Positions 54,081 to 64,000 of a stretch of 64,000 nucleotides of DNA are shown in pieces. The notes below the pieces were generated by a model that had not been told where the DNA came from, ran no database searches, and saw only the letters and a program-made list of their open reading frames with translations. The stretch lies in assembly GCF_010994095.1 (NCBI RefSeq), contig NZ_WJYO01000007.1, positions 62,001 to 126,000 of the forward strand, given 5' to 3'. Source of the stretch: Mumia xiangluensis. GTDB taxonomy: Bacteria; Actinomycetota; Actinomycetes; Propionibacteriales; Nocardioidaceae. The first letter of the stretch is position 1, and every line of letters begins with the position of its first letter. The translations under genes and the position numbers were made by a program.

Positions 54081-54815
54081 ATGGTGAGCGTGGCCGCCGA
54101 CGGCCGTTTCGAGACGTTCGGCTCGCAGCACCTCGCAGTGCTGTGCGCCTTCGCGATCGGCCTCGCTGCCGTCGTGTGGATCGGCTGGCGTGTCCGGGGC
54201 ACTGCGGCCGAGACGCCGGTGAGCCGCGCGCTCGCACTCGGGATCTGCGCGGTCACGATCCCGCTCCAGGTCATGCAGTTCCTCCCTGACGAGTGGAACC
54301 CGAGGACGTCACTTCCCTTCCAGCTCTGCGACCTCGCGTGGGTCTTCGCCGTTCACGCCCTCTGGACGCGCTCACGCCTCACGTCGACCGTGACGTACCT
54401 GTGGGGCATCACGCTCACCACCCAGGGCATGCTCACACCCGACCTCGCCACGCCGTGGCCCGAGCCGCGGTTCCTCATGTTCTGGGCGATGCACATCCTC
54501 ATCGTCTGGGCAGCGCTCTACCTCGTGGTCGGGCTCGGGGTCTGGCCGACGTGGGCGACCTACCGCCGTACGGTCGTCATCACGCTCGTCTGGGCCGTGC
54601 TCGCCTTCACCTACAACGCGATCGCCGACGTCAACTACGGCTACCTCAACGGCAAGCCGAACGGCGCCTCGCTCCTCGACTACCTCGGACCGTGGCCGGC
54701 GTACGTCGTCCTCGAGATCGCGATCGTCGCCGCGGTGTGGGCGCTGCTCACCTGGCCGTGGACGCGCCGCGAGGCCAGGACCTCCGTGGCGCCAGCGATC
54801 GGGCATCGGCCGTGA
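54081..54815 (+). CDS. TIGR02206/YwaF-type membrane protein
   Basis: 244 residues, about six membrane helices. FETFGSQHLAVLCAFAIGLAA near the start, SLPFQLCDLAWVFAVHALWT, and ADVNYGYLNGKPNGASLLDYL match the TIGR02206 family, whose function is unknown. Its end overlaps the convergent GNAT gene by 68 bp. Confidence 0.88.
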   Translation: MVSVAADGRFETFGSQHLAVLCAFAIGLAAVVWIGWRVRGTAAETPVSRALALGICAVTIPLQVMQFLPDEWNPRTSLPFQLCDLAWVFAVHALWTRSRLTSTVTYLWGITLTTQGMLTPDLATPWPEPRFLMFWAMHILIVWAALYLVVGLGVWPTWATYRRTVVITLVWAVLAFTYNAIADVNYGYLNGKPNGASLLDYLGPWPAYVVLEIAIVAAVWALLTWPWTRREARTSVAPAIGHRP

Positions 54816-56316: not shown

Positions 56317-56976
56317 ATGGACACCGAGATGCTGGACGAGCACCCCGACGGACGCGTACGGCGCGGCAACGCGACGCGACGAGCCGTGCTTCGTCGTGCC
56401 GTCGACGTCGCCTCGGTGGAGGGCCTCGACGGACTGTCGATCGGGCGCCTCGCGACCGAGCTGTCGATGAGCAAGAGCGGCCTCTTCGCCCTCTTCGGCG
56501 CGAAGGAGGAGCTCCAGCTGGCCACGATCCGCGCCGCCAAGCGCATCTACATCGACACGGTCGTCACCCCGGCACTCGAGACGCCGCCGGGTCTGGGACG
56601 GGTGTGGGCACTGGTCGCCGCGTGGATCGACTACTCCCGTGGACGCGTCTTCCCGGGCGGATGCTTCTTCGCGAGGACGAGCTACGAGTACGCCGCCCGC
56701 GACGGCGAGGTCCGCGACGCGCTCACCGCGTCCCGCCACGAGTGGCTCGAGCTGATCGAGCAGTCACTCGCCGAGGCGCAGTCCCTGGGCGAGCTCGCCG
56801 GCACCGAGGCTCTGCCCCAGCTCGCCTTCGAGCTCAACGCCTTCCTCGACGGCGCGAACCTCGACTCGCTGCTGGGCCGCGGCGAGCCCGCGTACGACCA
56901 GGCGCGCCGCGCCATCCGAGACCGTCTCGCATCGGCGAACCGAGCAGCCACGCAACCCTGGGACGGCACGACCTAG
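56317..56976 (+). CDS. TetR family transcriptional regulator
   Basis: 219 residues from ATG 56317. N-terminal HTH: RRAVDVASVEGLDGLSIGRL, then LSMSKSGLFALFGAKEELQ. C-terminal TetR_C_33/YxaF-like region with GGCFFARTSYEYAARDG. Divergent from the hydrolase-GNAT operon with the TACGA palindrome between them. Confidence 0.93.
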   Translation: MDTEMLDEHPDGRVRRGNATRRAVLRRAVDVASVEGLDGLSIGRLATELSMSKSGLFALFGAKEELQLATIRAAKRIYIDTVVTPALETPPGLGRVWALVAAWIDYSRGRVFPGGCFFARTSYEYAARDGEVRDALTASRHEWLELIEQSLAEAQSLGELAGTEALPQLAFELNAFLDGANLDSLLGRGEPAYDQARRAIRDRLASANRAATQPWDGTT

Positions 56977-56979
56977 GAC

Positions 56980-57594
56980 TCACGCGAGCACGCGCGGGAT
57001 GGTCTGGCGCACGAGCGTGACGAGCGCTCCGCTCAGGAGCCCCTCGGCCTGCTCGCGCGTGACCTCGGCGCCGGTCAGCCAGCGCCGGGTGACGACGGTC
57101 GCGTACGCCGAGTAGCCGTGCAGCGCGATGCGGACGGCGGGATCCTCTCGGACGGCGTGGAGGCCGGCGATCTCGCAGATCTGGTCGGTCATGCTCTCGA
57201 CGTACTCGTTGAGCAGTCGCTCGATCTCGCCGTCACGCGACGCCCCCAGGAAGCCCGATGCGGCGAGCCAGGTCTCGCGACTGCGGGAGACCATGACGAC
57301 CCACTCGTGCACCGCCTCCTCGATGCGGTCCTCCGCGGTCGCGCCTTCGACGAACGCCGGCGTCGGGAGGCGCGGCGCGCCGAGCAGCCGGCCGATCACC
57401 GCGAGGTAGAGGTCTCTCTTCGTCGGGAAGTAGTGGCTCAGCAGACCTCTGCTGATGCCGCACGCCTGCGCGAGCTCGCTGGTCGACACCTCGTCGTACG
57501 GGCGCTCCGCGAAGACGCGGCTCGCGGCGGAGACGATCAGGTCGCGTCGCTCGTCCGGAGGGAGGCGGCGACGCGGTGTGTCCATGCCTGTCAT
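56980..57594 (-). CDS. TetR family regulator of the lcp cluster
   Basis: 204 residues; ATG 57594 or 57585 are both possible. HTH: SAASRVFAERPYDEVSTSEL, then CGISRGLLSHYFPTKRDLYL. The C-terminal part is helical with a TetR_C_36-like outline. Divergent from the first lcp gene with a perfect palindrome (57658) between. TetR-type repressors of lcp are known in rubber-degrading actinobacteria, so this is the likely LcpR; the ligand would be a rubber-derived oligo-isoprenoid. Confidence 0.87.
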   Translation of the reverse strand: MTGMDTPRRRLPPDERRDLIVSAASRVFAERPYDEVSTSELAQACGISRGLLSHYFPTKRDLYLAVIGRLLGAPRLPTPAFVEGATAEDRIEEAVHEWVVMVSRSRETWLAASGFLGASRDGEIERLLNEYVESMTDQICEIAGLHAVREDPAVRIALHGYSAYATVVTRRWLTGAEVTREQAEGLLSGALVTLVRQTIPRVLA

Positions 57595-57657
57595 CTTGCC
57601 GGAGCCAGGCACGTCCGACTGTCGGATGGCCGGACCCGCACGACCGCGAGGGCTTAT

Positions 57658-57670
57658 TGGCAAGTTGCCA
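57658..57670. promoter_or_regulatory. TetR operator-like palindrome upstream of lcp
   Basis: TGGCAA-G-TTGCCA, a perfect 13-bp palindrome, 63 bp after the TetR start and 84 bp before lcp ATG 57754. The right arm TTGCCA could serve as the lcp -35 region, with GATATT at 57691 as a possible -10 (20 bp apart, longer than usual). Confidence 0.6.
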
Positions 57671-57753
57671 GTTGTTATTGTCATGCTGCCGATATTAGCC
57701 CTACGATGCGCTGAAGGCCGCTCGCGGCACGCGACTCGACGGGGAGTGTGGAC

Positions 57754-58986
57754 ATGTCAGAGCTCAGCAGACGAAACCTCATCAGGGCTGGCGGAGCCCT
57801 CGGCGCGCTGGGCGCCTTCGCGGCCGCCGCCCCCGCCCGAGCATGGACGTGGTCGTCCACGGGCTCGATCGCGGGAACCGGCACCGGTCGCGACCCGCGC
57901 TACGTGTGGGACGACCTGGCGGATCCCGTGCTCGCCTCGCTCCTCGACCGCGGCGGTGTCCCCGCCGTGAACGACGTGCTCCGTTCGTGGACGAAGAACG
58001 GTCAGACCGTCCCGTCCGGCCTCCCCTCCGACGTCGCGGCGCTCGTCAACCAGACCCGCAGGCTCCCGGCGTGGGCGGACCAGGCGAAGCTCGACCTCGC
58101 GTACCAGTTCACCAGGAAGCGCGGGCTCTACCTCGGCGTCCTGTACGGCATGAACAGCGGCATGATGAGCGCCGCGATCCCGCGCGAGGCGCGCGCTGTC
58201 TACTACTCGAAGGGCGGCGCGGACCTCACGGACCGCATCGCGAAGACGGCGAAGCTCGGGTACGACATCGGCGACTACCACGCGTACCGGCCGGACGGCG
58301 AGATGATCGTGACCTGTGTGAAGACCAGGCTCACGCACGCCGCCGTCCGTCACCTGCTCCCCCAGTCCCCGCACTGGGTGGCCTCGGCCGACGAAGACAT
58401 CCCGATCAGCCAGTTCGACATCATGGTGACGTGGCACAGCCTCGCGTCGTCGGTCTGGCAGAAGCTCCGGGAGTGGAACATCCGCATCCCCAAGGCCGAG
58501 GCTGACGCCTACCTCCACATCTGGCAGGTGACCGCGTCGATGCTCGGCGTCCTCGACGAGTACATCCCCGCATCCTGGGACGAGGCGCTCGCCCAGCGTG
58601 AGCAGGTGCTGGTGCCGCTGCTCGGACCGACGCCCGAAGGCGTCAAGCTCGCGGAGATGCTGGTGAACCTGGGCGACCGCATCGACTTCACCCTGGTGAC
58701 CAAGCCAGCGTTCGAGTCGGTCACCCGATACATGCTCGGCGACCAGGTCACGGACTGGCTGGGGATCGACCGCAACCCCATCCTCGACGCCACGGTCGCC
58801 GCGGCCTGGATCCCGTTCGTCCGGCTGCGCGAGCTCGGTCTCCCTCTGCTCGGGGTGCCGTCGATCTACTTCGTGTTCGAGGAGCTGATCCGGAAGTTCG
58901 CGCTCTTCTACCTCGAGCCCGGCCAGACGATCAACATCGACATCCCGACGATGAACAACCCGAACTACCCGAGCTCGGCGTCCTGA
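57754..58986 (+). CDS. lcp: Latex clearing protein (rubber oxygenase), copy 1
   Basis: 410 residues from ATG 57754 (GGGGAG 7 nt upstream), with a Tat signal (SRRNLIRAGGALGALGAF to APARA). DUF2236/MpaB superfamily. Catalytic set of Lcp from Streptomyces sp. K30 is kept with exact spacing: Glu145 (IPREARAVYY), Arg161, Lys164, Thr165 (DRIAKT), Arg192 and heme-axial His195 (KTRLTH), which correspond to Glu148, Arg164, Lys167, Thr168, Arg195, His198. Secreted b-type cytochrome that cleaves cis-1,4-polyisoprene oxidatively to oligo-isoprenoids with aldehyde and ketone ends. First gene of lcp-lcp-oxiB-oxiA. Confidence 0.93.
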   Translation: MSELSRRNLIRAGGALGALGAFAAAAPARAWTWSSTGSIAGTGTGRDPRYVWDDLADPVLASLLDRGGVPAVNDVLRSWTKNGQTVPSGLPSDVAALVNQTRRLPAWADQAKLDLAYQFTRKRGLYLGVLYGMNSGMMSAAIPREARAVYYSKGGADLTDRIAKTAKLGYDIGDYHAYRPDGEMIVTCVKTRLTHAAVRHLLPQSPHWVASADEDIPISQFDIMVTWHSLASSVWQKLREWNIRIPKAEADAYLHIWQVTASMLGVLDEYIPASWDEALAQREQVLVPLLGPTPEGVKLAEMLVNLGDRIDFTLVTKPAFESVTRYMLGDQVTDWLGIDRNPILDATVAAAWIPFVRLRELGLPLLGVPSIYFVFEELIRKFALFYLEPGQTINIDIPTMNNPNYPSSAS

Positions 58987-59014
58987 GACGCCCACGCAGC
59001 GAGGAGGACAGATC

Positions 59015-60253
59015 ATGAACGAGGTCAGCAGACGCAAGGTCCTGATCGCCGGCGGTGCGCTCGGCGCGGCCGGGGCGCTCGGAGGGATGGCGCCGGCGGC
59101 AGCCCGACCCGCGTGGACGTGGGCGGCGACCAGCTCGCTCGCCGGCTCGGGTCGCGGCATCGACCCCCAGTGGGTGTGGGACGAGGAGGTCGACGCCCTC
59201 ATGGCGGCGGTGATCGACCGCGGCGACGTCCCTCTCGTCAACCAGCACCTGGCGGGGTGGTCCCGCAACGACCAGCCCGTCCCGTCCGGGCTCCCGGCCG
59301 ACGTCCGCGCGTGGATGGAGCGCGCCCGGCAGCTGCCGGACTGGGCAGACCACGGCAAGCTGCGCGCCGCCGCCCGATTCAACGAGTCGCGCGGCATCCT
59401 GCTCAACCTCTGCAACGGCCCCGGCGGCGGCATGCTGAGCACGGCGATCCCCAGGGAGGCACGCGCCGTCTACTACTCCAAGGGCGGCGCCGACATGGAG
59501 GACCGCGTCGCGAAGACGAGCATCCTCGGGTTCTCGGTCGGCGACCTCAACGCGTACGAGCCCGACGGCGACTGCATCGTGCAGGCCGTCAAGACCCGGA
59601 TGGTGCACGCCTCCGTACGCCATCTCCTCCCCCAGTCTCCGCACTGGGAGGGCACGAGCGGTGGTCAGAAGATCCCGATCAGCATCGCCGACGTGCTGGT
59701 CACCTGGCACAGCCTCCCCACGTGGACGATGAAGAAGCTGCGGGAGTGGCGCGTACGCCTCACCACCGAGGAGTCCGAGGGCTACCTCCACTCCTGGCAG
59801 GTGACCGCCCACCTGCTCGGCGTCCCCGACGAGTACATCCCGTCCTCGTGGGACGCCGCCAACACCCAGTACACGCAGCTCTTCGAGCCCGTCCTCGGCC
59901 CGACCCCCGAGGGTGTCATTCTCACCGACATCCTGCTCGGCCAGCTCGCGGAGCAGACCAGCCCGTTCAGCGTCAGCCGACCGCTCGTCGACGCCCTCGC
60001 CCGGTTCCTCGTCGGTGACAGGATCGCCGACTGGGACGGGATCGACCGGGAGCCGCTGTGGGAGGGCGCGATCCGCGCCGCCTGGCCCGCCTTCATCGCC
60101 CTCCGCGAAGGAGCCATCAAGCTGCCACTGGTGCCGCGGCTCGCGTGGACGATCGACGAGATCGCCCGCGCGTACCTCATGTTCTACCTGACCAAGGGCA
60201 AGGGGACCGTCATCTCGATCCCCGACCGCAACCGCACCTTCCCCGCGTCATGA
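59015..60253 (+). CDS. lcp: Latex clearing protein (rubber oxygenase), copy 2
   Basis: 412 residues; ATG 59015 follows GAGGAGGACAG. Tat signal SRRKVLIAGGALGAAGALGG. Numbering equals Lcp-K30: Glu148 (IPREARAVYY), Arg164, Lys167, Thr168 (DRVAKT), Arg195, His198 (KTRMVH). Clearly a paralogue of the gene 28 bp upstream but diverged throughout, so an old duplication. The stop overlaps the oxiB start by ATGA (60250-60253). Confidence 0.93.
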   Translation: MNEVSRRKVLIAGGALGAAGALGGMAPAAARPAWTWAATSSLAGSGRGIDPQWVWDEEVDALMAAVIDRGDVPLVNQHLAGWSRNDQPVPSGLPADVRAWMERARQLPDWADHGKLRAAARFNESRGILLNLCNGPGGGMLSTAIPREARAVYYSKGGADMEDRVAKTSILGFSVGDLNAYEPDGDCIVQAVKTRMVHASVRHLLPQSPHWEGTSGGQKIPISIADVLVTWHSLPTWTMKKLREWRVRLTTEESEGYLHSWQVTAHLLGVPDEYIPSSWDAANTQYTQLFEPVLGPTPEGVILTDILLGQLAEQTSPFSVSRPLVDALARFLVGDRIADWDGIDREPLWEGAIRAAWPAFIALREGAIKLPLVPRLAWTIDEIARAYLMFYLTKGKGTVISIPDRNRTFPAS

Positions 60254-62544
60254 CCGACGAGGACCTTCCCCCGCCGGCCGCCGGCGGCTTCGGTCGCCGC
60301 CGCTTCCTCGGCTACGTGCTCGCTGCCACGACGTTGACGACGGCCGCCAAGCTCAGCATCGCGCCCAGCGCGGAGGGCATCGTCTCACCGCAGCCGACCG
60401 ACTTCCTCGACCTCAACGACCTGATGACGGTCGCGGCCCTGCCGACCTCGCACCTGATCACGGTCAACGTCAACACCGACGGCACGGTGTCGTTCGCGCT
60501 GCCGCGGGCCGAGGTCGGCCAGGGCATCACGACCTCGACCGCGATGCTGATCGCGGAGGAGATGGACGTCCCGCTGGACCGCCTCCGGGTGACCCTTGCC
60601 GACGCGCGGCCGGAGCTGCTGTTCAACCAGCTCACCGGAGGCTCCAACACGACCATCGCGACCTTCACCCCGATCCGGGTCGCCGCGGCCATCGCCCGGC
60701 TGAGGCTGCTCGCGGCAGCGGCAGCCGAGCTCGGGGTCGCGAGGTCCGACGTCACGCTGCGCGGCGGTGTCGTCACGGCTCCGGGGCACACCGGCCTCGA
60801 CATCGGCGAGCTGGCCGCGAAGGCAGCGAGCTCCCGTACGGAGGAGGTCCGGGTCACGCTCAAGGGGCGCGAGGACTTCACGGTCATCGGCACGGCACGC
60901 AACCGCGTGGATGCGCTCGCCGCGGTCACCGGGCGCAAGACCTTCGCGATGGACCTCCAGGTCCCGGACGCGAAGCCGACGATGGTCTGCCGCCCGCCGA
61001 CGATCAACGGCACCGTCCGGTCGGTGGCGAACGCCGCCACCGTCCGCGCGATGCCGGGCGTCACCGACGTCGTCACGATCGCGACGGGTGTCGCGGTGCG
61101 CGCCGAGACCTTCGGCCAGTGCATCGACGCCGTCCGGGCCCTTCAGGTGTCGTGGGGGCCCGGCACGGCCGAGGGCAAGTCCGACGACGACGTCATCGCC
61201 GAGCTGCGGCGGGCCGAGCTACCGATGGGGCTTCCGCCGCTGACGCCCACGGTCGACACCCGGTTCACCTTCCACTTCCGCAGCAACAGCGCACTCGAGA
61301 CCAACTGCGCGATCGCCGACGTCAGCGGTGGCCGCGCGGAGATCTGGTCGTCCCTGAAGTCGCCGATCGTCGCGAAGCAGAAGATCGCCGCAAAGCTCGG
61401 CCTCCCGGTCAGCGCCGTGACCGTCCACGTGACCGAGGGCGGTGGGTCGTTCGGGCGGCGGCTCTTCTTCGACGCCGCGCTCGAGGCCGCCGAGGTGTCG
61501 AAGAAGATCGGCAAACCGGTCAAGCTCATGTGGCATCGCGCGGACGACTCGCGTCAGGGCCGCACGCACCCGATGGCACTCTCGCGGGTCAGGGCGACCT
61601 ACCTCGGCAGCTCCGTACTGGGCTTCAAGCAGGTGCACACGAGCGTCGCCACCGACCTCGGCCACGGCCTCGGCGAAATGATCACGGCACTGGCCGCGAG
61701 CATCCCCGTCGGCGACCTCGCATTCTCCGAGACGTTCTTCCAGCTGTCCCAGACGATGCCGTACGACTTCGGGGTCAGCAACCGCGTCCTGAACGAGACC
61801 GACAAGGGCTTCAACACGGGCAGCATGCGCAACGTCTACTCCCCCGACATGACGTGCGCGCGGGAGCTGGTCGTCGACCGCGTCGCTTCCAGGATGCGGA
61901 AGGACCCGTACCAGTTCCGCCGGGGCTCCCTGCGCAGCGATCGAGCGCGGGCGGTGCTCGACAAGGTCGCCGAAGCCGGCAGCTGGGGTCGGCGACTGCC
62001 GGCCGGGGTCGCTCAAGGCATCGCCTTCCACGACGAGTACCGCTCCATGAGCGCCGTCCTCGTCGAGCTCGACTGCCGCCCCGAGGCCGTCGGCCGCACG
62101 ATCCGCGATGCGGTGACCGGACCGCGGGTCACCAAGGCCGTGATCGCCGCGGACGTCGGCCTCGCCGTGAACCCACGCGGTCTCGAGGCGCAGATGATGG
62201 GGTGCCTGATGGACGGCATCGCGCTCGCGCTGACCTCGAGCCTCCACCTCCGCGACGGCCACTTCCTCGAGGCGAGCTGGGACAACTACTTCTACACCCG
62301 GCAGTGGAACACGCCGCCCGACCTGCAGATCTTCGTCATGCCTCCGACCACCGGAGACCCCGGTGGTGCAGGCGAGCTCGGCGTCGCGGCGTCGATGGCG
62401 GCCGTGGCATGCGCGTACGGAAGGGCGACCGGGACGATGCCGACGACGTTCCCCATCAACCACGGGGTGCTGTCGTTCGAACCGAAGCCCACGGTGCCGC
62501 CGATCCCGCAGTCCCCTACCGACGGCCTGCAACACGTCCGCTGA
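60250..62544 (+). CDS. oxiB: Molybdenum hydroxylase large subunit (isoquinoline 1-oxidoreductase beta type), OxiB
   Basis: 764 residues with a Tat signal (GFGRRRFLGYVLAATTLTTAA). Mo-binding aldehyde dehydrogenase domains in order: ITVNVNTDGTVSFALPRAEVG, GGSNTTIATF, GGGSFGRRLFFDAALEA, FNTGSMRNVY, and the C-terminal GDPGGAGELGVAASM with the catalytic Glu of the molybdopterin site. In rubber-degrading Streptomyces sp. K30, oxiAB beside lcp is needed to oxidise the aldehydes from Lcp cleavage. Coupled to lcp copy 2 by a 4-bp overlap. Confidence 0.9.
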   Translation: MTDEDLPPPAAGGFGRRRFLGYVLAATTLTTAAKLSIAPSAEGIVSPQPTDFLDLNDLMTVAALPTSHLITVNVNTDGTVSFALPRAEVGQGITTSTAMLIAEEMDVPLDRLRVTLADARPELLFNQLTGGSNTTIATFTPIRVAAAIARLRLLAAAAAELGVARSDVTLRGGVVTAPGHTGLDIGELAAKAASSRTEEVRVTLKGREDFTVIGTARNRVDALAAVTGRKTFAMDLQVPDAKPTMVCRPPTINGTVRSVANAATVRAMPGVTDVVTIATGVAVRAETFGQCIDAVRALQVSWGPGTAEGKSDDDVIAELRRAELPMGLPPLTPTVDTRFTFHFRSNSALETNCAIADVSGGRAEIWSSLKSPIVAKQKIAAKLGLPVSAVTVHVTEGGGSFGRRLFFDAALEAAEVSKKIGKPVKLMWHRADDSRQGRTHPMALSRVRATYLGSSVLGFKQVHTSVATDLGHGLGEMITALAASIPVGDLAFSETFFQLSQTMPYDFGVSNRVLNETDKGFNTGSMRNVYSPDMTCARELVVDRVASRMRKDPYQFRRGSLRSDRARAVLDKVAEAGSWGRRLPAGVAQGIAFHDEYRSMSAVLVELDCRPEAVGRTIRDAVTGPRVTKAVIAADVGLAVNPRGLEAQMMGCLMDGIALALTSSLHLRDGHFLEASWDNYFYTRQWNTPPDLQIFVMPPTTGDPGGAGELGVAASMAAVACAYGRATGTMPTTFPINHGVLSFEPKPTVPPIPQSPTDGLQHVR

Positions 62545-62560
62545 CCGAGGAGAAGATCCC

Positions 62561-63037
62561 GTGCCCAAGCACACATTCCGGCTGAACGGTCGCCAGGTCG
62601 CCGTCGATGTCGCCGACGACGTGCGCCTGCTGTGGGTCCTGCGCGACCTGCTCGGCGTCACCGGACCCAAGTACGGCTGCGGCATCAACGTCTGCAAGGC
62701 CTGCACGAGCCACCTCAACGGCAAGGCCTTCAATCCGTGCGCCGTCCCCGTCAAGGACATCGGCCCCACCGACGAGGTCACCACGATCGAGGGCCTTCCT
62801 GACACGGTCGGCCGCTCACTCCACCCCATGCAGGAGGCATGGATCGAACGCGACGTTGCCCAGTGCGGCTACTGCCAGCCTGGTCAGATCATGACGGCGG
62901 TCGCGCTCGTACGCCGGGTCGCCGCCGAAGGCCGTTCGATCACCGACGAGGACCTCGACGGGATCCGCAACATCTGCCGCTGTGGCACCTACTCGCGCAT
63001 CCGCGACGCGATCCGGTCCGGCGCGGCGGAGATGTGA
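62561..63037 (+). CDS. oxiA: 2Fe-2S subunit of molybdenum hydroxylase, OxiA
   Basis: 158 residues from GTG 62561, GAGGAG 8 nt upstream. First cluster ligands GCGINVCKAC and a later Cys in FNPC; second cluster CGYCQPGQIM and ICRCGTY. Typical small subunit of the IorA/AldH type. No own signal, so it would travel with Tat-dependent OxiB. No FAD subunit follows, as in isoquinoline 1-oxidoreductase. Confidence 0.92.
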   Translation: MPKHTFRLNGRQVAVDVADDVRLLWVLRDLLGVTGPKYGCGINVCKACTSHLNGKAFNPCAVPVKDIGPTDEVTTIEGLPDTVGRSLHPMQEAWIERDVAQCGYCQPGQIMTAVALVRRVAAEGRSITDEDLDGIRNICRCGTYSRIRDAIRSGAAEM

Positions 63038-63045
63038 ACGCGTGA

Positions 63046-63082
63046 CGGAGCCGAGCCGGTCCCGTGCACCGACTCGGCTCCG
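63046..63082. terminator. Terminator of the lcp-oxi operon
   Basis: 15-base arms (CGGAGCCGAGCCGGT against ACCGACTCGGCTCCG, one mismatch) around the 7-nt loop CCCGTGC, 8 bp after oxiA. Confidence 0.75.
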
Positions 63083-63132
63083 CGAGACCGCGTCGGTGGC
63101 GACGGCGTACCGCTTGTCCAGCCGTGGCCACG

Positions 63133-64000
63133 TCAGCCGTCTCGGCGCGCCGGAGGCATGAGCCGACCGGCGAGCACCGCGACGCCGCCGAGGACGAGCG
63201 CGGCGCCGATCGTCACGGTGCGCCACACGAACAGCGCGGCGACCAGGGAGCCCTCGAGCTCCGGACCCGCGTACGCGACCATGATCGCGACGGCGGACGC
63301 GTCGAGGACCCCGAGGCCGAAGATCGGCAGCAGGGTCATGGGATAGACCAGCAGGTACGCGGCGACCGCCTCGCTGGCAGGCAGCGCGTCGGCTCCGACC
63401 CCGACGAACCGCACGCTCAGCAGCAGGATCGCGGCGTCGCACGCGAGCATCACCAGCAGTGCCGCCAGCGACCGGGGCAGTCCCGTCGAGAGGCGGCCCG
63501 AGATCTGTTCGCGGAACGCGGTGGCCGCCGCCTCCCACTCCTCGGGATCGACGCTGCGCCGGACCGTACGGACGCTCCGCCCGGCAACGAGCCCGACGCG
63601 GCCCGCCGTCGTCCGTCCCCGCGCGACGAGGTAGACCACGACGAGGATGACCGCCGCGACCGATCCTCCGGCGAGGGCTCCAGCACCGAACGACGAGTCG
63701 AACCTGTCGGTGAGCACGAGGACGAACCCGATCACCGGCGCGGACCACCGCACCGTGTTGTGGGCGACCTTCGTCATGACCACCCCGGCGACCGCGGCCG
63801 GTGGCTCGACGCGCCACCGCGCGAGCATCGTGAGACGGATCGCGGTGTCGGCCGGCGGTGGCGCCACGACGCGCATCAACATGGCGGCCTGGTCGCTCAC
63901 GACGGCGCGAGTCATGCCCAGCCCGGGGACGAAGAGGGCCGTCGGGACAGCGCTCAGGACCTGGCGCACGACCACGACACCGAACAGCACTACGAGCTGC
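63133..64000 (-). CDS. Lysylphosphatidylglycerol synthase/flippase-like membrane protein (5' end outside)
   Basis: At least 285 residues visible from GTG 63990, with the frame open to the window edge, so the true start may lie beyond. About six to seven helices (VLFGVVVVRQVLSAVPTALF, FGAGALAGGSVAAVILVVVYL, LAALLVMLACDAAILLLS, YPMTLLPIFGLGVLDASAVA) and a charged loop PEEWEAAATAFREQI. Outline of the UPF0104/LPG-synthase-TM family. Convergent with oxiA. Confidence 0.7.
   Translation of the reverse strand, partial: QLVVLFGVVVVRQVLSAVPTALFVPGLGMTRAVVSDQAAMLMRVVAPPPADTAIRLTMLARWRVEPPAAVAGVVMTKVAHNTVRWSAPVIGFVLVLTDRFDSSFGAGALAGGSVAAVILVVVYLVARGRTTAGRVGLVAGRSVRTVRRSVDPEEWEAAATAFREQISGRLSTGLPRSLAALLVMLACDAAILLLSVRFVGVGADALPASEAVAAYLLVYPMTLLPIFGLGVLDASAVAIMVAYAGPELEGSLVAALFVWRTVTIGAALVLGGVAVLAGRLMPPARRDG

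Follow-up and report, generated by a model that had tools for sequence, protein, structure and literature searches.

A Mumia gene cluster that looks like a complete rubber degradation operon with two tandem rubber-cutting enzymes

RESULTS

Gene content and layout of the cluster

The window, i.e., the whole stretch of 64,000 nucleotides analyzed, comes from a Mumia strain (Nocardioidaceae), an actinobacterium of the soil type. Its positions 56980-63082 read as a divergent gene for the TetR-family regulator LcpR, followed by lcp1, lcp2, oxiB, and oxiA, with the features listed below.

56980..57585, minus strand: LcpR, TetR-family regulator, divergent from lcp1 (Pfam TetR_N, E 3.7e-16)
57658..57670, no strand: perfect 13-base palindrome TGGCAAGTTGCCA, probably the palindrome of the sequence-only reading; absent in three relatives
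57676..57694, no strand: candidate LcpR operator TATTGTCATGCTGCCGATA, an imperfect dyad over a promoter-like -35; recognizable in 4/4 Mumia intergenic regions
57754..58986, plus strand: lcp1, Lcp1-clade rubber oxygenase, 410 aa (phmmer to 5o1l, E 6.8e-149; PF09995)
59015..60253, plus strand: lcp2, 412-aa rubber oxygenase of the Lcp2 clade (Lcp2-clade signature; phmmer match to 5o1l, E 5.9e-155)
60250..62544, plus strand: oxiB, molybdopterin-binding large subunit, 764 aa (Pfam MoCoBD_2 and MoCoBD_1)
62561..63037, plus strand: oxiA, small subunit with two [2Fe-2S], 158 aa, start codon GTG (Fer2_2, E 3.9e-25; Fer2, E 3.2e-5)
63046..63082, plus strand: G+C-rich hairpin 3' of oxiA, a possible terminator without T-run (folding versus shuffles)

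This set looks like a complete Mumia operon for rubber breakdown, with two tandem rubber-cutting enzymes. The start of lcp1 is probably ATG 57754 rather than GTG 57748, because this ATG and the purine-rich stretch before it are kept in three other Mumia genomes. At the other end of the pair, lcp2 and oxiB share an ATGA, in which the oxiB ATG (60250-60252) overlaps the lcp2 TGA (60251-60253); oxiB adjoins lcp2 in other genera too. The OxiAB type, a Mo-binding large subunit and a 2x[2Fe-2S] small subunit adjoining lcp, is also present at Lcps in 16 other clusters. The translated OxiA has eight Cys in both expected motifs, the N-terminus of OxiB carries a Tat-like motif (GRRRFLG), and none of the five cluster genes encodes an FAD subunit. 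In an NCBIfam scan, each Lcp matched 0 families, and OxiA and OxiB stayed far under the cut-offs of the families related to them; the scan thus speaks neither for nor against the Lcp and OxiAB names.

The sequence-only reading had described regulator, palindrome, the four genes, and a terminator as one unit. The gene set and the ATGA overlap agree with this description, whereas its palindrome (probably that at 57658-57670) is not conserved and its terminator lacks a T-run after the stem. The hairpin at 63046-63082 folds with -34.6 kcal/mol for 71 nt (z -2.0; 8/200 shuffles were equally stable) and was not listed by the terminator scan.

Promoter region and the LcpR gene

A TetR gene divergent from lcp, with an imperfect dyad in the common promoter, represents an LcpR-type arrangement. 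LcpR orthologues that are 68-79% identical adjoin lcp1 in three other Mumia genomes. We place the start of LcpR probably at 57585, giving about 200 aa, because this ATG is common to all four aligned Mumia genomes and because the longer TetR frame (234 aa, ATG 57684) would cross the conserved dyad; the longer frame to 57684 is nevertheless possible.

The dyad at 57676-57694 was chosen by eye from conserved columns, the repeat scan itself having omitted it. Between 6 and 7 of its 8 arm positions pair, and it is kept with changes in the four Mumia genomes. It lies over the -35 of a promoter-like TTGTCA-18-TACGAT at 57678-57707 (1 found versus 0.1 expected), and it is probably the LcpR operator upstream of lcp1. 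The perfect palindrome at 57658-57670, which the terminator scan also listed as a terminator-like stem, was rejected as operator since it is missing from the other three Mumia promoters. Around lcp genes, phmmer at E 1e-3 detected a frame resembling LcpR in only 5 of 15 loci searched, namely, the three Mumia loci, Streptomyces fructofermentans (5e-26, about 4 kb off), and Antrihabitans (1e-7), so that the regulation cannot be transferred by homology from other tandem clusters.

Both oxygenases belong to the Lcp family

Among solved structures, the only matches of both Lcps at E 0.001 were 5o1l and 5o1m, i.e., LcpK30 (phmmer). Identity to LcpK30 amounts to 56.1% for Lcp1 and 54.8% for Lcp2 over nearly the whole chain, and both match PF09995 with 57.3 (lcp1) and 47.6 (lcp2) bits versus a cut-off of 23. 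Glu, Arg, Lys, Thr, Arg, and His had been claimed at the 148/164/167/168/195/198 spacing of Lcp-K30. An 87-row alignment in K30 numbering bears this out, with E148, R164, K167, T168, R195, H198, D56, D60, R202, and T230 present in both proteins as in K30. The 870 residue cells checked contained two X (R164 in row L110, H198 in row L061) and two gaps; the alignment behind this check and behind the list of clade changes given below included four overlong rows (read past the stop) in untrimmed form. By eye, both N-termini are Tat-like, with SRRNLI in Lcp1 and SRRKVLI in Lcp2, an SRR followed by a hydrophobic stretch.

A generic MpaB protein was the alternative to be considered. It is ruled out by the structure matches to LcpK30 only and by the kept active-site residues, and both proteins fall inside supported Lcp clades. 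At the level of sequence, they are thus Lcps rather than generic MpaB/DUF2236 proteins, as first proposed.

Comparison with known systems

The sequence-only reading regarded the two adjacent, diverged Lcps as the notable part. This layout is, in fact, already known from other actinobacteria, having been published for Actinoplanes sp. OR16, Streptomyces sp. CFMR7, Dactylosporangium sp. AC04546, and Microtetraspora sp. AC03309. According to its published description, OR16 has an lcp1-lcp2-oxiB-oxiA operon with the divergent TetR gene ACTI_59620, for which RT-PCR over all three junctions and a gel shift with the TetR were reported (PMC7413915). The three of three purified OR16 Lcps consumed O2 with latex, at 4.02, 1.17, and 0.22 U/mg, and the reported optima are 30 C and pH 7.0 for Lcp1 and 35 C and pH 7.5 for Lcp2 (PMC7413915).

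Compared by description and unaligned, OR16 and Mumia agree in gene order and orientation, and the OR16 TetR is reported to bind upstream of lcp1. They differ in family and in the ATGA overlap of lcp2 and oxiB noted for Mumia, and the palindromes published for OR16 and VH2 do not resemble the Mumia dyad. A further likeness is a third, OR16-like lcp elsewhere in the Mumia genome, which adjoins the gene of a 392-aa protein with two TetR_N stretches; OR16 is described as having a third lcp by a duplicated-domain TetR (ACTI_69510). As described, strains AC04546 and AC03309 also have an adjacent lcp pair followed by oxiB-oxiA in other taxa, as does CFMR7, another taxon known here via citing papers. 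Streptomyces sp. K30 shares with Mumia an lcp that adjoins oxiB-oxiA and all tested active-site residues (5o1l, 5o1m), but it has a single lcp, which lies outside both window clades, among Streptomyces relatives. Gordonia polyisoprenivorans VH2 likewise has a genome with a second Lcp, namely, lcp2 on plasmid p174 (NC_016907.1, L104); unlike the window lcp2, however, this gene belongs to the Lcp1 clade and has no oxiBA among its 12 surrounding annotated features. A cursory literature search for Mumia and rubber found no experimental rubber work on the genus; one rubber review names Mumia once.

Elsewhere in the genome, there are 12 Mce/MlaD matches, which form two sets of six (contigs C2 and C4). 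The genome also contains six PF09995 matches, three of which have no match to Lcp2 at E 1e-40, and the MPAB_Lcp domain is found in non-Lcp proteins as well. One could read from this occurrence that the operon acts on other isoprenoids and that rubber is incidental for the host. We consider this very improbable, in view of the 55-56% identity to LcpK30 along the full chain length, the conservation of all tested active-site residues, and the OR16-like gene set that includes an lcp3 with a double TetR.

Lcp2 forms a clade associated with OxiAB

Lcp1 and Lcp2 are 51% identical and fall into different clades, each with members from other orders, which excludes a recent tandem duplication. Judged from the sequences, they are two old clades. 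Both trees (87 and 148 rows) come from quick searches, that of 148 rows without a mixture model; in the 87-row tree, the four overlong rows were trimmed and L103_7863 entered without its first 118 residues, being correct in the 148-row tree.

All 32 Lcp2-clade genes identified are located inside an oxiBA cluster, and 31 of the 32 have another Lcp in the cluster. None of those identified lacked either an adjoining oxiBA or a second Lcp in the genome. The count refers to fetched loci, the Lcps outside it being mostly 49-56% identical to Lcp2; a divergent Lcp2 (G733) was examined since it is in tandem, and a solitary divergent one could have escaped. In the order sample G156, an OxiB of at least 67% identity was present in 22/22 Lcp2-bearing genomes, as compared to 1/77 Lcp-bearing genomes without an identified intact Lcp2 (Fisher 4e-21, with kinship ignored and the 67% line set post hoc).

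The Lcp2 clade has 20 clade-fixed changes, some of them near the heme pocket; at 2 of these 20 positions (257 and 358), both window Lcps have the same residue. Five of the 20 are on the 45 published tunnel/pocket residues (p 0.08). Fixed or near-fixed changes affect the tunnel/pocket residues 138, 165, 169, 174, and 396, and further changes occur at their chain neighbors 134, 141, and 173. A link of these changes to function is only suggestive. They would fit a specialized Lcp2 that acts on oligo-isoprenoids from Lcp1 or on another polymer (trans-isoprene, butadiene rubber, or other terpenoid polymers), as would the strict link to oxiBA and the reported lower activity on latex of OR16 Lcp2 relative to OR16 Lcp1. 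However, the enrichment at tunnel residues is modest at the p value given, and OR16 Lcp2, possibly a member of the Lcp2 clade, is still described as attacking latex. We regard such a specialization as quite conceivable, if somewhat short of probable.

The tandem pair varies within Mumia

The tandem pair is unstable within Mumia. About 65 kb separate the two genes in genome G001, an 11-codon scar of a second lcp lies between lcp1 and oxiB in genome G004, and M. quercus has no lcp2. The tandem is missing from three other Mumia genomes and is thus not essential. In addition, the lcp1 body of the window looks exchanged with another Mumia lineage.

In the OxiBA tree, the four Mumia clusters join (100/100), and the window pairs with M. 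quercus, which has no lcp2 (98/94). Taken alone, this grouping would allow an insertion of lcp2 into an lcp1-oxiBA cassette. Because of the lcp remnant between lcp1 and oxiB of G004, the data favor an ancestral tandem with later losses over such a new insertion. Against the 5' ends of lcp2, this remnant scores 34 (window) and 38 (G001), values reached by 0 and 0 of 5000 shuffles; against those of lcp1, it scores 29 (its own) and 23 (window), reached by 0 and 25 of 5000. No match to the lcp2 3' ends was found, and no lcp remnant was seen in the lcp1-oxiB spacer of M. quercus. The remnant thus appears nearest to lcp2, but it may be a partial lcp1 copy.

The loss or breakage of lcp2 in several genomes, which besides G004 and M. 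quercus include G923 with a C-terminal lcp2 remnant, is what would be expected if the two Lcps were redundant, with the second copy providing dosage or another pH or temperature optimum and no division of labor. The published OR16 data point in the same direction, as Lcp1 and Lcp2 both act on latex with different optima. Redundancy, in contrast, does not account for the clade-fixed changes of Lcp2, some at the pocket, and fails to predict that oxiBA and a second Lcp constantly accompany every identified Lcp2-clade gene. We consider it possible but rather doubtful.

DISCUSSION

We consider it very likely that the cluster is an LcpR-repressed lcp1-lcp2-oxiB-oxiA operon in which Lcp1 is the main cutter, Lcp2 is auxiliary, and OxiAB oxidizes aldehydes. 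By precedent of OR16 and VH2, the TetR repressor LcpR would sit on the dyad over the lcp1 -35 until a rubber breakdown product frees the promoter. The four genes would then be transcribed as a single message, with the translation of oxiB coupled to that of lcp2, as their overlap suggests. From homology to LcpK30 and the intact active sites, the two Lcps are predicted to be Tat-exported, b-type heme dioxygenases that cleave the polymer between isoprene units, which would leave aldehyde and keto ends. OxiAB, a Mo/2x[2Fe-2S] oxidoreductase, may convert the aldehyde ends into acids, which would be taken up and then beta-oxidized. Lcp1 is probably the main enzyme attacking latex, whereas Lcp2 may be an auxiliary oxygenase with altered heme surroundings and a role tied to the OxiAB branch.

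A more far-reaching proposal is that Lcp2 represents a distinct subfamily that works only with a partner Lcp and OxiAB. The tandem would then be a two-step depolymerase in which Lcp1 cuts and Lcp2 trims the oligomers for OxiAB; as it stands, we hold this to be unlikely.

Mumia is a further genus with an OR16-like rubber gene set. Its close relatives represent natural variants (tandem, split, lcp2-deleted, and lcp-free) that could reveal the role of the second Lcp. If Lcp2 is a dedicated partner, enzymatic rubber recycling should start from mixtures of Lcp1 and Lcp2, not from a single Lcp.

A predicted rubber operon of a published kind

The Mumia genome containing the window (4.62 Mb; contig C7:62001-126000) harbors the following features, in window coordinates:

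56980-63037, rubber cluster: LcpR (- strand), lcp1, lcp2, oxiB and oxiA (+ strand)
63046-63082, hairpin after the cluster

Among 177,635 distinct solved-structure sequences, Lcp1 and Lcp2 each matched only two entries at E 0.001, both of them LcpK30 (Streptomyces sp. K30), with identities of 56.1% and 54.8%, respectively. As the sequence-only reading had proposed, both proteins retain Glu, Arg, Lys, Thr, Arg and His at K30 positions 148, 164, 167, 168, 195 and 198; an alignment of 87 Lcps showed that four further structural residues are likewise retained. Each of these residues occurs in 86 or 87 of the 87 rows, one row having R at K167; such near-universality is to be expected of rows picked by similarity. 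OxiB contains two molybdopterin-binding domains, whose best stretches are ordered MoCoBD_2, then MoCoBD_1, and OxiA has both [2Fe-2S] domains. The cluster is real and probably a working rubber operon.

The same operon was described in Actinoplanes sp. OR16, where RT-PCR spanned every junction, a gel shift was shown for the divergent TetR, and Lcp1, Lcp2 and Lcp3 were purified and all active (PMC7413915). The Results of that article give 4.02, 1.17 and 0.22 U/mg, respectively, corresponding to about 3.4- and 18-fold differences; its Discussion states 7- and 18-fold, an inconsistency within the article (PMC7413915). Adjacent lcp pairs preceding oxiBA were also reported for Dactylosporangium AC04546 and Microtetraspora AC03309 and, as cited in the articles on these two strains, for Streptomyces CFMR7. 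The window operon is of this published kind, and the adjacent, diverged Lcps, initially regarded as its notable part, are a layout already in print for all four strains in the parts of the articles available.

Two other genes are located near the cluster. A second TetR-family gene (56317-56976, + strand; TetR_C_13, E 2.6e-28) is convergent with LcpR, with 4 bases separating the two ends, and a TMEM164-family membrane protein is encoded at 54081-54815. Its 87% identical counterpart in Mumia genome G004 (locus L047, 12990-13700) lies directly 3' of oxiA.

Putative operator of LcpR

The dyad at 57676-57694 was recognizable, with changes, in all four Mumia LcpR-lcp1 intergenic regions, its arms pairing at 6, 7, 7 and 6 of 8 positions. 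It overlaps the sole promoter-like site in 56900-63300 (0.1 expected); by eye, no -10-like hexamer was seen at the corresponding place in G004. Given the position of the dyad and the precedents of OR16 and Gordonia polyisoprenivorans VH2, we infer that LcpR would repress the lcp promoter at this putative operator.

Abundance of Lcps and a third lcp

In the class sample, 36 of 394 genomes carried Lcps (E 1e-60 or better), and the coordinates placed two Lcps at most 2.5 kb apart in 7 of these 36, including the window genome; in two further genomes (G247 and G203) the pair is separated by oxiBA. The family sample contained 26 carriers among 294 genomes, and by coordinates only the window genome had tandem Lcps.

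The window genome has a third gene elsewhere:

G000:C2:431658-432851 (locus L010, 8653-9846), third lcp, Lcp3 clade, 49% identity to Lcp2

It is adjoined by a convergent gene for a 392-amino-acid protein with two TetR_N stretches (L010 9897-11075), resembling OR16, whose third lcp adjoins a TetR built of two related halves (PMC7413915). Mce/MlaD-domain matches form two groups of six (G000:C2:864026-870197 and C4:158974-164881), which are candidates for isoprenoid-acid uptake.

Two Lcp clades and the association of Lcp2 with oxiBA

In a quick tree of 87 Lcps that included K30, window Lcp2 fell in a clade of 15 (SH-aLRT 99) and window Lcp1 in a clade of 47 (SH-aLRT 90). The latter joins a 12-row Lcp3 clade (support 98), and K30 lies outside the window clades with its Streptomyces relatives. 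In a 148-row tree, the Lcp2 clade comprised 39 rows (support 99); subtracting 8 duplicates (L143 = L022, L138 = L103 and six re-fetched genes) left 31 genes, and G733, counted by its signature residues, brought the total to 32. These phylogenies argue that Lcp1 and Lcp2 are members of two old clades.

All 32 Lcp2-clade genes identified are part of an oxiBA cluster. Another Lcp was found within about 0.5 kb in 28 of the 32, beyond oxiBA in three (G247, G203 and Amycolatopsis acidicola) and about 65 kb off in one (Mumia G001). The gene orders were lcp1-lcp2-oxiBA, lcp2-lcp1-oxiBA and lcp2-oxiBA-lcp1. Partners were mostly of the Lcp1 clade, but of K30 type in G128 and Streptomyces fructofermentans and of Lcp3 type in G358. 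A non-exhaustive search of the literature, covering parts of the articles, revealed no earlier statement of this near-exclusive tie to oxiBA and a partner Lcp.

In the sample from the order of genome G156, 99 of 345 genomes carried Lcps and 50 had OxiB matches at E 1e-200 or better. With a line of at least 67% OxiB identity, set after the table was inspected, 24 genomes remained: G923, G754 and the 22 that bear Lcp2, of which 21 were recognized by their identity to Lcp2 and one is G733. G923 contains a C-terminal 90-residue lcp2 remnant between lcp1 and oxiB (locus L183, 3277-3546), a loss in another family than that of the window. G754 is an exception to the rule, with OxiB alone: it had no Lcp match at E 1e-60, its OxiB (G754:C31:8717-10990) is close (69%), and its OxiAB may have another substrate source. 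Further exceptions are G670, whose OxiB (61% identity) lies next to a solitary Lcp according to the coordinates, and Mumia G003 and G004, where oxiBA accompanies lcp1 only.

The two clades differ at 20 positions, each at least 80% conserved per clade; window Lcp1 and Lcp2 are identical at two of them (257 and 358). Five of the 20 (138, 165, 169, 174 and 396) are among 45 tunnel or pocket residues (PMC11095694), and positions 131, 132, 134 and 141 are near 138 along the chain. Since the chance of at least five such coincidences is 0.08, this is a hint, not proof, that Lcp2-clade changes may be concentrated at the tunnel or pocket.

Proposed mosaic history within Mumia

Four of the six Mumia genomes searched, including that of the window, contain Lcps; G002 and G005 had none at E 1e-40. 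G003 and G004 share the layout LcpR-lcp1-oxiB-oxiA, and G001 has LcpR-lcp1 at one locus and lcp2-oxiB-oxiA about 65 kb off, with another divergent TetR-family gene (locus L042, 9521-10267). By eye, an inverted repeat (GAGATACA/TGTATCTC) was noted upstream of this lcp2-oxiBA, at about L042 10299-10335. Between lcp1 and oxiB of G004 (L047 10084-10148), a Shine-Dalgarno-like stretch precedes an 11-codon frame, the start of which best matches that of lcp2 and less well that of lcp1; we read this frame as the remnant of a second lcp.

The window lcp1 body (57850-58980) shows 91-95% DNA identity to G004, versus 66-78% on the LcpR side and 71-85% in oxiBA; the markers gyrB and an rpoB piece gave 88.8% and 94.1%. 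The much closer match of the lcp1 body than of its flanks to G004 points to gene exchange among members of the genus. The OxiBA tree pairs the window with M. quercus (support 98/94). In the parts of the rubber operon literature available, no mention of such a mosaic history was found. The simplest reading is that recombination would have swapped lcp1 between lineages of Mumia, with repeated losses of lcp2 from an ancestral tandem.
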